42,349 bases of DNA, taken from the NCBI RefSeq assembly GCF_014697475.1, contig NZ_JACJRV010000062.1, positions 1 through 42,349 of the forward strand, written 5' to 3'. Each line of letters begins with the position of its first letter. Position 1 is the first letter of the stretch. The translations under genes were made by a program, and so were the position numbers. Positions 6,111 to 38,951 of the stretch are shown in pieces. The notes beneath the pieces are model-generated. The model had not been told where the DNA came from. It saw nothing but the letters and a program-made list of their open reading frames with translations, and did not search any database. This stretch comes from Nostoc sp. FACHB-152. Its GTDB lineage: Bacteria; Cyanobacteriota; Cyanobacteriia; Cyanobacteriales; Nostocaceae.

Positions 6111-6191
6111 TAGGGAGTAGGGAATAGGGAGTAGGGAGTAGAAGATAAAACAGTGGAGCCACCACTCCCTACTCACCACTCACTACTCCCC
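6111..6191. repeat. Inverted pair of heptanucleotide arrays forming a long hairpin
   Basis: Four TAGGGAG-type units (6111-6138) face four ACTCCCT/ACTCACC-type units (6164-6191) on the other strand. Bases 6113-6139 can pair with 6190-6164 at 23 of 27 positions, leaving a ~24-base loop. The structure nearly fills the fabI-hisB spacer, so a through-transcript would carry it just before hisB. Confidence 0.75.
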
Positions 6192-33432: not shown

Positions 33433-36400
33433 CTAACTAGATGATTTTAATTTAATTCCCAAAACTTGGGTATAAGCACCTCGTGCTTGAGTAACGCCAA
33501 TGGTGCGTTCGGCTGATTCTATCATCGGACGACGCAAACTCACAACTATAAACTGTGCTAGTTGTGCTTGTTGTTTGATCATTCTAGATAATCGTTCTAC
33601 GTTTGCTCCGTCTAAAAACATATCTACTTCGTCAAAGGCATAAAAAGGTGATGGACGGTAGCGTTGTAGGGCGAAAATAAAACTTAAGGCGGTGAGGGAT
33701 TTTTCTCCCCCAGACATGGAAGCTAGTCGCTGTACTGGTTTACCTTTGGGGTGAGCAACTAAGTTTAAACCACTGTTAAAGGGATCTTCGGGATTATCAA
33801 GTTGTAGGTAGCCGTCGCCTTCTGAGAGGGTTGCGAAAATCGATTGGAAGTTTTCGTTAACAGCATCGAAGGCTTCTTTAAAGGCGCGTTGCCGCAATGT
33901 GGTAAAGTTTTCAATTCTTAATAATAATTCGGTACGTTCTGCTTCTAACGTCTGTAACTTGTCTGTAAGTTCTTGCAGGCGGTTTTGGGTGCGTTCGTAT
34001 TCTTCTAACGCCAGCATATTTACAGGTTCCATTGCCTGTAGGCGTTTGGCAAGCGATCGCAATTCTTTCTGCAATTCTTCTAAATCTACTTGATCGGGTA
34101 CTTCTGGTAAAGGACTGGGCAATTCTGGGAGTAGTTCTTGCAATTGGCTTTGTAGGGTTAGTAATTCCTCCCGCCGCTTTTGCTGGGTTTCTTGCAACTT
34201 TTCGAGTTCCCATTCCAATTGTTGCTGACGCAGAAGATGCGATCGCACTTCTTGTTCAATTGCGTCACGTTTTTGTTTTTCTTCACCCAAGCTTTTTTCC
34301 ATTTCGCCCAGCTTGGCGCGAGTTTCGGTGATTTGGGTGCTGAGTGCTGCGTGCTGGGTGCTGAGTGCTTGGATTTTATGCTGAGAAGTTGCTTGTTCTT
34401 GATGATACTGAGCAATTTTTTGTTCAGCTTCTTGAATACGTTCTTGCAACCTTTGTTGCTGATTTTCTAAGTTTTTCAGCCGTTGTTCTGCTTCCCGTAA
34501 TGAAGATTCTCGTTGTTGTAATTGTTGCTCTTGCGTTTTAATTACCGCTTGGATTTGCTGCCATTCGCTGGGTGTTTGAGATGCTTCTAACTCAGCTAAA
34601 GCATGACGTAATTGTTGTAGTTGCGCTTCTTGCCCTGGTAAATCTTTATCTAAAATTTCTAGGCGAGATTGGGCGGTGGAGAATTTTTCCGTATTTTGGG
34701 CAAGTTGCGATCGCGTCCCTTCTAATTGCGCTGTTAAAGCCTTAATATCTTTTTGCAACTGTTCTAATTGCAATTGCTGTTCGCGCCTTGCTTGACGTGC
34801 TTCCGTGAGTTCTTGGGATAGCTGTTTAGTTTTGGTTGATAAGGATGCGATCGCATCGATACAACGATCTAAAATCCGTTCAATATCTGCCAAGCGATTT
34901 TTCAACGCAATAACTTCATCTGATTCTGCCGCTTCTCCTGTGCCAAAGCGCAACGCTGAACGCTGATTTGTGCTACCACCAGTCATTGCGCCACTGGTTT
35001 CTAATAATTCTCCGTCTAAGGTGACGATGCGATATAAACCGAGGTTTTTCCGCGCCTGTTCTAAGTTAGCGAATACGACAGTGTTACCGAAAACATAGTT
35101 AAATACATCTTTATAACGGCGATCGCACTCAACCAAGTTCACAGCATAATTGACATAGCCGTTAGCTAATCGCAGGGTTGCATCTTGGGTAATTCTCGGA
35201 GCTTGAATCTTATTTAATGGTAAAAAGGTGGCTCTCCCCGCGCGTTTTTGCTTGAGAAGTTCAATTCCGGCGGCGGCGATACCATCATCATCGACTACGA
35301 TATGTCCCAACCTAGCACCAGCAGCAATTTCCAACGCTAATTGATAACGGGGTTCCACTCGTCCTAAATGTACCACCAAACCACAAACCCCAGGCATTCC
35401 CGATTGAATAATTACCTTACTCGCTTGAGTACCTTGGACTTCTTGCTGTGCTTGTGTTTGTGCCTCAATTTTATCTAACTGGCGTTGTTTTTCCCGTTGC
35501 TCTTGGGAAAGCCGCTTTTGCGTATCTTGCTGGATTTGTAATTCCTGTTCTGTAGCGGCGAGATTTTGCGCTAAGTTTTGGATGGGTTCGTTAGAGACGT
35601 TAAATTCTGCCTCAACTCGCGTACACTCAGCTTGTTTTTCTGCTAACTGCGGTTCTAAATTGGCAATTAACTGAGTTTGTTCGTGAATTAATTCTTGTAG
35701 CTGACTATTACGTTCTTTTAACTGTGCTTGCTCTGTGCGTTGCGGTTCCAGAGTTTGCAGTACAGTTTCGATTTGACGGTTCAGTGCAGTTTGTTGCTGC
35801 ACCCATACTTCCGAAGCTGAAGCGATTTCGGCGGCGGCTTCACGGGATTTTTGCAGTGCTTGTTCTGCCTCATCCCGTTGCTGTTGACAATAAACTATAG
35901 ATTGTCGTTCGACATTCTGGGTTTGAGCAATTTCTCCTAAAGCCTGTTGATGCTGTTGAATTTCTTGCTGCGTTTGCACCAAGCGTTTGGCTGTTTCTTG
36001 GGAAGTTGTTTCTAATTCTGTTTGCTGACGCTGGAGTTGCTTGCGTTCTGCTTCTTGAGTAGCGAGGCTAGACTGTACCGCTAATAATTCCTCCTCACCC
36101 AAAGCTTTCACATGAGCATTGAGTTGTTCTAGTTCAGCAGTTTTTTGGGTAATGCCGACATTCAGAGTTTCTAATTGGAGTGTAAGGTCATTATGAGAGC
36201 GATCGCCATTTTGAATTTCTGTCGCTAACTTTTCTTGCTGTGCTTGCAGCGAACGCCACGATAAAACTGCTTCCCAAGATTGCTTATGCAAGTATTCCGT
36301 TCGCAGCTTTTGATATTTTTCTGCTTTCGCTCTATCTTGAGAAAGGCGATCGCGCTGTGCAGTTAACTCCGTCTCAATAATCCGACAGCTATCTTCCTTT

Positions 36401-37110
36401 TCCTTCACCTCATCTAAAGTACCCTTGGCTTGATGAATCTTGCGATCAAACGCCGCCACCCCAGCCAACTCATCAATAATTTCTCGCCTTTCCTTAGCAT
36501 TCATCGAGATAATGCTAGTAACGTCCCCTTGCAACACGACGTTATAGCCTTCAGGATAAATCCGCAGACTCTCCAACTCCTCATGCAACTCCGTCAGCGT
36601 ACAAGCAACACCATTGATATAGTAATTTGACGTGTAAGTTCCTTGATGAGTCACCCGCAACCGTCTGGTGACACTCCATTCCGTTGGGGAGTCGGGAGTA
36701 GCGAGTGGGGAGTGGGAATTCTCTTCATCTTCCTCCAATTCCTCCGCGCCATCCTCACTCCCCGCGACGGACACTTTGCTCAAGTCGGGAGACCCGCCCA
36801 CGCAAGTGTCCTCCTCTGCGCCTTTGCGTGAGATATCCTCCCCCGATAAATCAAACGTCACCGTCACACTAGCTTCCACGGATGCGCGTCCTTTAGCCGT
36901 TTGAGTATTATTTACCAGATCCGGCAGGCGATCAGCCCGCATTCCCTTAGAACTGGCGAGTCCCAAACAAAATAACAGCGCATCCAAAATATTAGACTTA
37001 CCGGAACCATTTGGCCCAGAGATGACAGTGAACCCCGGTAGCAAAGGGACTGAGGTAGTACCGCCGAAGGATTTGAAGTTGGTAAGTTCCACGCGCTTGA
37101 CGTATACCAT
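33433..37110 (-). CDS. smc: Chromosome segregation protein SMC
   Basis: SMC is the ATP-dependent condensin that compacts and separates chromosomes together with ScpA and ScpB. The 1225-residue protein has an N-terminal head half with Walker A GPNGSGKS (32-39), a first coiled-coil arm, a hinge (about 555-690; PGVCGLVVHLGRVEPRYQLA in part), a second arm, and a C-terminal head half with signature SGGEKS (about 1132) and Walker B FDEVDMF (about 1158). It is complete, but longer than the usual 1170-1200 residues. The excess is mostly an insertion at residues 91-143, between strands of the N-terminal head, coded by repeats (36682-36840). A second heptanucleotide array lies in the distal coiled coil. 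scpA and scpB are not in this window. Confidence 0.96.
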   Translation of the reverse strand: MVYVKRVELTNFKSFGGTTSVPLLPGFTVISGPNGSGKSNILDALLFCLGLASSKGMRADRLPDLVNNTQTAKGRASVEASVTVTFDLSGEDISRKGAEEDTCVGGSPDLSKVSVAGSEDGAEELEEDEENSHSPLATPDSPTEWSVTRRLRVTHQGTYTSNYYINGVACTLTELHEELESLRIYPEGYNVVLQGDVTSIISMNAKERREIIDELAGVAAFDRKIHQAKGTLDEVKEKEDSCRIIETELTAQRDRLSQDRAKAEKYQKLRTEYLHKQSWEAVLSWRSLQAQQEKLATEIQNGDRSHNDLTLQLETLNVGITQKTAELEQLNAHVKALGEEELLAVQSSLATQEAERKQLQRQQTELETTSQETAKRLVQTQQEIQQHQQALGEIAQTQNVERQSIVYCQQQRDEAEQALQKSREAAAEIASASEVWVQQQTALNRQIETVLQTLEPQRTEQAQLKERNSQLQELIHEQTQLIANLEPQLAEKQAECTRVEAEFNVSNEPIQNLAQNLAATEQELQIQQDTQKRLSQEQREKQRQLDKIEAQTQAQQEVQGTQASKVIIQSGMPGVCGLVVHLGRVEPRYQLALEIAAGARLGHIVVDDDGIAAAGIELLKQKRAGRATFLPLNKIQAPRITQDATLRLANGYVNYAVNLVECDRRYKDVFNYVFGNTVVFANLEQARKNLGLYRIVTLDGELLETSGAMTGGSTNQRSALRFGTGEAAESDEVIALKNRLADIERILDRCIDAIASLSTKTKQLSQELTEARQARREQQLQLEQLQKDIKALTAQLEGTRSQLAQNTEKFSTAQSRLEILDKDLPGQEAQLQQLRHALAELEASQTPSEWQQIQAVIKTQEQQLQQRESSLREAEQRLKNLENQQQRLQERIQEAEQKIAQYHQEQATSQHKIQALSTQHAALSTQITETRAKLGEMEKSLGEEKQKRDAIEQEVRSHLLRQQQLEWELEKLQETQQKRREELLTLQSQLQELLPELPSPLPEVPDQVDLEELQKELRSLAKRLQAMEPVNMLALEEYERTQNRLQELTDKLQTLEAERTELLLRIENFTTLRQRAFKEAFDAVNENFQSIFATLSEGDGYLQLDNPEDPFNSGLNLVAHPKGKPVQRLASMSGGEKSLTALSFIFALQRYRPSPFYAFDEVDMFLDGANVERLSRMIKQQAQLAQFIVVSLRRPMIESAERTIGVTQARGAYTQVLGIKLKSSS
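34335..34369. repeat. In-frame heptanucleotide array in the smc coiled coil
   Basis: Five units GGGTGCT, GAGTGCT, GCGTGCT, GGGTGCT, GAGTGCT encode, on the minus strand, part of LSTQHAALSTQ in the second arm (about residues 914-926). Because seven bases times three make seven codons, the peptide itself becomes a heptad pattern compatible with a coiled coil. Confidence 0.8.
36682..36840. repeat. Repeat mosaic encoding an insertion in the SMC head
   Basis: This segment codes for about 53 residues (91-143) not expected in SMC. It contains five heptamers GGGGAGT, CGGGAGT, AGCGAGT, GGGGAGT, GGGAATT (36686-36720); an inverted repeat GGACACTT/AAGTGTCC (36769-36776, 36804-36811) enclosing CGGGAGACCCG; and CTCTGCGCCTTTGCGTGAG, a phrase typical of dispersed Nostocales repeats. 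The encoded peptide is rich in Glu, Asp, Ser and Pro and is probably a disordered loop. Confidence 0.8.
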
Positions 37111-37207: not shown

Positions 37208-37257
37208 TAGACGCGCAAGCGGCTTGCCGCAGGCTACCGCAGAGGCGCAGAGGAGAG
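37208..37257. repeat. Dispersed GC-rich repeat upstream of smc
   Basis: AGACGCGCAAGCGGCTTGCC and the following CGCAGAGGCGCAGAG resemble common Nostocales dispersed repeats and include the palindrome GCGGCTTGCCGC (37219-37230). It is in the 220-base spacer between smc and the pseudokinase gene, 5' of smc. Confidence 0.6.
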
Positions 37258-37330
37258 GAATTATTGGAATATAAAAGATAATTTTCTTTTCTAGCATTTT
37301 TGACTAGATGATTTTGCAAGTAGCCAATAG

Positions 37331-38862: not shown

Positions 38863-38951
38863 ATATAGCAATCCTATTTGATTTATAAAGTACTGGTTGA
38901 GGTAGGGAGTAGGGAGTAGATTTGTTTGTAATTCATTTAGGATTGCTATAT
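38863..38951. mobile_element. MITE-like element (89 bp) carrying a heptanucleotide array
   Basis: ATATAGCAATCCTA at the left end is a perfect 14-bp inverted repeat of TAGGATTGCTATAT at the right end, and similarity continues with mismatches for a further dozen bases. The interior contains TAGGGAG TAGGGAG TAG (38903-38919). It lies 39 bases upstream of the pseudokinase start and may carry or disturb its promoter. The rest of the 38825-39302 spacer is AT-rich with nothing recognised. Confidence 0.75.

Follow-up and report, generated by a model that had tools for sequence, protein, structure and literature searches.

How do small dispersed repeats come to be encoded in frame within the head of a chromosome segregation protein, and what, if anything, do they do there? 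The question is raised by a window of 42,349 nucleotides, the whole stretch of DNA analyzed here, from the draft 8.6-Mb genome (190 contigs) of Nostoc sp. FACHB-152, whose named close relatives include Nostoc sp. CHAB 5844, Nostoc sp. TH1S01, Nostoc sp. FACHB-110, and Nostoc spongiaeforme FACHB-130. The minus strand of the window carries an open reading frame (ORF) of 1225 residues (33433..37110) that matches the NCBIfam model TIGR02169 with 1180.5 bits (cut-off 729.4) over residues 3-1221 and contains the Pfam domains SMC_N and SMC_hinge, the latter at residues 573-688. Its translation includes both GPNGSGKS and SGGEK, which we take to be the Walker A motif and the C-terminal signature of SMC, respectively. 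These matches identify the ORF as smc, the gene for chromosome segregation protein SMC.

The survey of relatives yielded three side observations on smc. In one single-contig genome (G001), the frame is interrupted, with a first stop after 889 residues and two overlapping matches (L019 and L020); SMC may be non-essential there, or the interruption may be a sequence error. In a 3.8-Mb single-contig genome of the same family (G023), no SMC match was found at E <= 1e-150 or 1e-100, with 3 of 26 candidates scored. An intein or other large insertion in smc was considered for two loci (L088 and L111), where the joined tblastn matches are 1.2-1.8 kb longer than the gene, yet the parsed proteins are of normal length and the candidate was rejected.

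Residues 89-144 of the window SMC (36679..36846, minus strand), as delimited by conserved alignment columns, constitute a hypervariable acidic loop with a net charge of -14. An earlier note on this DNA, made from the sequence alone, had described a mosaic of three repeat classes at 36682-36840; these positions do correspond to residues 91-143 of the minus-strand SMC frame, and the five heptads, the palindrome, and the CTCTGCGCC repeat were all located in the loop, each class being dispersed in the genome. The heptanucleotide array, of the GGGGAGT type, occupies 36686..36720 on the plus strand and consists of the units GGGGAGT, CGGGAGT, AGCGAGT, GGGGAGT, and GGGAATT, which appear in the protein, read from the CCCCACT strand, as HSPLATPDSPT. 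It is followed by a spacer (36721..36765, minus strand) that translates into an acidic segment, the GSEDGAEELEEDEEN region, and that has similar counterparts in congeners. Next to the spacer lies a 48-bp palindromic element (36766..36813, plus strand), with the core CAAGTCGGGAGACCCGCCCACGCA at 36781-36804 and the arms GGACACTT at 36769-36776 and AAGTGTCC at 36804-36811, which contributes 16 residues to SMC. Directly abutting the palindromic element is the dispersed CTCTGCGCC-type repeat (36814..36833, plus strand), which here reads CTCTGCGCCTTTGCGTGAGA and yields SRKGAE in the protein. Such repeats also occur elsewhere in the window: a palindrome followed by another CGCAGAGGCGCAGAG repeat is found at 37210-37259, approximately 100 bp upstream of the smc start codon, and further heptad-type arrays are located at 6164-6191 (minus strand) and 38900-38919.

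In the genome of Nostoc sp. FACHB-152, the palindrome core occurs 23 times (up to 3 mismatches), the CTCTGCGCC repeat 41 times (up to 2 mismatches), and the heptad array 48 times (up to 2 mismatches, some occurrences overlapping), with reversed-pattern controls giving 0 in every case. The loop segment as a whole has at least 31 matches in its own genome (40 of 131 candidates scored) and, by a hand count of rows, is matched in 33 of 60 relatives (30 of the 36 that belong to the family and 3 of the 24 others). The repeat classes differ in how often they fall within ORFs of at least 150 residues: 22 of the 23 palindrome copies lie outside such ORFs, the copy in SMC being the only one inside, and, in samples that consist of the best matches and thus are not random, an ORF of this size encloses the CTCTGCGCC repeat at 5 of 30 loci (the best 30 of 41 matches) and the heptads at 12 of 20 loci (the best 20 of 48), the latter amounting to 10 distinct frames once two overlapping pairs are merged. 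When treated as single-stranded DNA, the palindrome in the loop forms only a modest fold (z = -1.88; 11 of 200 shuffles equally good or better). Many of the 33 folded copies share an inverted-repeat structure, that is, a core hairpin with arms that differ between copies but are mostly complementary, as judged from the folds rather than from a formal covariation test; several copies fold otherwise (L269, L275, L353, and L358), and two are incomplete (L274 and L277).

The same repeats were found in frame in other proteins of this genome. When ten repeat-carrying proteins other than SMC were scanned against NCBIfam, six scored above the curated cut-offs, namely, a radical SAM protein (TIGR03960), anthranilate synthase component I, RecJ, ThiO, TrpD, and isoleucine--tRNA ligase; of the other four, three stayed under the cut-offs (two kinase- or peptidase-like proteins and a regulator), and the fourth had no family. 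Individual in-frame repeats were recorded in anthranilate synthase I (L323), IleS (L289), ThiO (L330), the radical SAM protein (L322), a histidine kinase-like protein (L320), and RecJ (L325). As a control, RecJ was compared across the same 11 genomes of the genus that were used for SMC (L338-L349), and the linker between two conserved motifs was found to span 9-55 residues and to contain the same kinds of repeats, so that SMC is not the only protein with a repeat-grown loop. In TrpD, repeats of different classes occupy one shared site: heptads in the window genome (L332:1244-2347) and a palindromic element in the related genome G008 (L357), the two proteins being 65% identical over 197 residues, with the repeat in the same place. 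Of ten copies of the G008 element that were examined, six lie in open frames and represent three different reading frames, including those of RecJ (L358) and TrpD (L357). Repeat insertion is not specific to SMC, given that RecJ, TrpD, TrpE, IleS, and other proteins have in-frame repeats, and it looks like a recurring route of protein-loop growth in these bacteria rather than a one-off event.

The position of the loop within the SMC head was addressed by modeling. An AlphaFold model of residues 1-337, built from 28 sequences and missing the C-terminal lobe, is of fair quality (mean pLDDT 68.6, pTM 0.39), with pLDDT below 50 at residues 94-107 and 109-138. The secondary structure of this model and the conserved alignment columns place one conserved strand before the loop (residues 77-87; 36850..36882, minus strand) and another after it (residues 144-154; 36649..36681, minus strand). 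The alignment with the SMC protein of Bacillus subtilis (5h66) breaks off after residue 85 of the B. subtilis protein and picks up again at 97, compared with 87 and 144 here, which corresponds to a loop of about 11 residues in B. subtilis versus 56 in the window SMC. By topology, the loop is predicted to form the tip of a beta hairpin that belongs to the N-terminal half of the head. The same alignment places it one strand pair ahead of the INNQPCRLKD turn, in which residues R120 and K122 of B. subtilis presumably bind DNA; a search for DNA-binding residues of the B. subtilis head in the portions of the literature that were accessible gave no support for this assignment, the K60 matches being other residues, such as K601.

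Comparison with relatives revealed both features anticipated in the earlier note, that is, variation of the loop in length and sequence between close relatives and conservation of the flanking strands. Across 11 genomes of the genus, the loop spans 34-69 residues and differs in content. When the loops of two of these relatives (G010 and G001) are aligned to that of the window, each has a gap of 48 nt that coincides exactly with the palindromic element, whereas the alignment with the loops of G008 and of the G017 type is ambiguous. An addition relative to congeners is observed for the 48-bp palindromic element only. We measured internal intervals in 97 distinct full-length SMC proteins of Nostocaceae, obtained from 111 loci after removal of one that was too short, one without the N-terminus, and 12 duplicates. 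In this set, the positions of residues 90 and 143 are separated by 14 to 91 residues (35 different lengths, standard deviation 12.1), whereas the range of the other internal intervals is at most 3, a value that two of them reach. The loop is the single large length-variable internal site in SMC.

A larger set was assembled with a pattern parser, which extracted 241 loops from 251 loci, 196 of them distinct, with 154 from Nostocaceae and 42 from other families (the named loci were assigned to families by similarity). The 154 Nostocaceae loops are 18-95 residues long, with a median of 48, and contain, according to crude and overlapping peptide patterns, peptides of the CTCTGCGCC type (63 loops), the CCAAAAT-type heptad (48), a nine-base repeat (27), the CCCCACT-type heptad (21), and the GGFPDL/GGSPDL palindrome (2). 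Because 62 of the 154 fit none of these five classes, not every loop is visibly built from repeats. In relatives, the loop is occupied by different elements, which are dispersed in the respective genomes: positions 89-171 of the G008 loop have 99% identical copies elsewhere in G008 over 83, 79, and 73 bases (among the 42 matches listed, with 40 of 358 candidates scored), the G116 loop contains another element with a 94% identical copy elsewhere in that genome, and pieces of the G071 loop match other parts of G071 at up to 96-100%. The claim that the residues of the loop are extra requires qualification. It stands in comparison with B. subtilis (about 11 residues) and with the short loops of 5-10 residues that make up 8 of the 42 parsed from other families; given the family median of 48, however, most of the loop length is normal for Nostocaceae. 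The loop is repeat-derived and in frame, as the earlier note proposed, but it is not one recent insert into a compact head. It represents the present stage of a hairpin tip that most of the Nostocaceae sampled have in a long form and that measures 5-10 residues in some other cyanobacteria.

The identity of the three repeats, the empty site in congeners, the confinement of length change to the loop, and the parallel cases of RecJ and TrpD are the observations from which our interpretation starts. It is very probable, in our estimate, that the loop results from repeat capture, resembling that of the Rickettsia palindromic elements (RPE), at a hairpin tip that tolerates nearly any sequence as long as it is in frame and acidic. 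Under this scenario, dispersed repeats would enter or expand at sites across the genome, and most of the copies falling into genes would be expected to disappear, whereas those landing at a flexible hairpin tip would survive if they leave the total length divisible by three and introduce no stop codon. Survival in frame would be eased by the composition of the repeats, as stop codons are absent from the GGGGAGT and CCAAAAT heptads in all six frames and from the palindrome region in five of the six. The lineage of the window genome would have acquired the 48-bp palindromic element beside a CTCTGCGCC repeat of older date and a heptad array. We infer that the loop is disordered and exposed and, for this reason, accepts almost any sequence. 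Purifying selection would purge frameshifts and stops and, to judge from loop composition, keep the loop net acidic, the probable reason being that, on a head that handles DNA, a basic tail would bind the DNA or clash with it. The repeats themselves would add no specific function.

The acidity of the loop is the feature on which the strongest alternative is built. The earlier note had called the loop acidic, and this character proved to be general: all 196 parsed distinct loops are net acidic, with an excess of 2 to 18 acidic residues, 195 of the 196 remain so when the end residues are trimmed, and eight further loops, which the parser failed to read, also have an excess of acidic residues (2 to 29). 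Among dinucleotide shuffles of the family loops, 1268 of 6160 are open, and 9.5% of the open ones are net acidic. The other five frames of the Nostocaceae loop DNA are acidic in 0, 4, 23, 98, and 40 of 154 cases, so that acidity is also frequent in one of the antisense frames. Across the 11 genomes of the genus, the net charge ranges from -8 to -14 in the SMC loops and from -1 to -5 in the RecJ loops, although, counted per residue, the shortest RecJ loops (9 residues, -3) match those of SMC in acidity. Charge is what stands out in SMC among the repeat-bearing proteins; part of the loop acidity could, however, stem from shared ancestry, given that loops within the genus are related and the counts ignore kinship.

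These observations might be taken to mean that the loop has a selected role, with an acidic, DNA-mimicking tether that vies with DNA for a place on top of the SMC head or gates DNA entry, its sequence drifting freely provided that charge and length are sufficient. The finding that even unalignable loops from other families are acidic, the conservation of the flanking strands but not of the loop, and the location of the loop one strand pair before the INNQPCRLKD turn (with its presumed DNA-binding residues R120 and K122) are all compatible with such a role. We nonetheless consider it unlikely, because acidity is equally expected if selection simply removes basic loops, and because the 5-10-residue loops found outside the family indicate that a long loop is dispensable. 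A more specific form of this idea, to which we give rather little weight, is that of an acidic disordered head loop in which charge is selected while the sequence is disposable and is rebuilt from repeats, making it a DNA-mimicking regulator of the chromosome motor; if this were true, such a regulator loop could tune DNA entry differently in each species.

Repeat capture also accounts better for the data than the view that the loop is an old functional domain of cyanobacterial SMC that is repetitive in appearance only. Stigonematalean and Scytonema/Calothrix-type relatives do share a non-repeat acidic loop (SDHEPDE...RKEKIRAKPG), and the loop is of this different kind, at approximately 50 residues, in the Fischerella, Scytonema, and Calothrix lineages. 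However, the window loop lacks such a sequence and its pieces are dispersed in its own genome, close congeners vary in loop content and length, and the same 53 residues that the earlier note had singled out were looked for in distant cyanobacteria and were not found, all of which makes an old domain very improbable. We find barely plausible the proposal that the loop is a contingency switch, in which changes by one heptad unit alter the frame and thereby switch SMC between off and on. A unit of seven is not divisible by three, and in one locus (L263 of G155), the frame does change within the loop, between the repeats and the next strand, but the parser read through the loop in frame in 241 of 251 loci and visual inspection did so in 8 of the remaining 10, the last two being one shifted locus and one without the N-terminus, and the single shift may be a sequencing error. 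An assembly or sequencing artefact is hardly credible, for although the genome is a draft in 190 contigs and repeats are prone to misassembly, the frame is open over all 1225 residues, and congeners from separate assemblies have the same kind of loop in the same place.

The preferred reading, repeat capture at a tolerant hairpin tip, has precedents in bacteria. In Rickettsia, palindromic elements of 105-146 bp are described, in the part of the report available to us, as inserted in 19 reading frames, many of them encoding conserved proteins, with one of the affected enzymes (Gmk) being active (PMC2229807). As far as the available portions of the respective papers go, the RPE and their Wolbachia equivalents have in common with the Nostoc element that small dispersed palindromes lie in frame within housekeeping proteins, in unstructured segments (PMC2229807, PMC3733652, PMC2996958). 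The Nostoc element differs in being only 48 bp long and in being accompanied by heptads and CTCTGCGCC repeats, and all of its own-genome copies but one (22 of 23) lie outside ORFs of at least 150 residues. By analogy, the Nostoc palindrome would qualify as RPE-like, having dispersed copies, inverted-repeat structure, and an in-frame position with empty sites in relatives. The heptads, in turn, resemble the STRR sequences known from heterocystous cyanobacteria, such as the GGGGA(C/T)T repeats of Nostoc PCC 7120, which, in the accessible portion of the source, are likewise G-rich tandem repeats of a 7-nt unit with many arrays per genome, 89 in all, of which 68% are intergenic and the rest intragenic (PMC4692102); the unit in the SMC loop is GGGGAGT instead. 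The STRR literature, in the parts that were examined, contained no link of heptanucleotide repeats to SMC. Vioque reportedly described in 1997 an STRR inside the RNase P RNA gene, and Elhai et al. are said to have found in 2008 small dispersed repeats, short and mobile, in Nostoc genomes. Searches for the repeat sequence strings retrieved one unrelated match from rapeseed, and no report of a repeat-built loop in SMC was found in the literature searched, which is weak evidence of absence given the thin coverage of subscription papers. Protein-coding palindromic repeats and heptad arrays are thus a known phenomenon, of which cyanobacterial SMC represents a further variant.

What this variant adds is its setting. 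In-frame palindromic insertions have been reported, as far as the accessible sources indicate, mostly from intracellular bacteria with reduced genomes, whereas here they occur in free-living cyanobacteria with large genomes, with several repeat classes together and at recurrent sites in core proteins. Intermediates that look datable, that is, an empty site and near-identical donor copies, are present in many sequenced relatives, and this natural series lends itself to the questions of how far a conserved protein may change and whether repeat capture ever becomes function. Within the SMC head, the loop would mark one place where length and sequence appear to be free while charge is constrained, a proposition that is directly testable.
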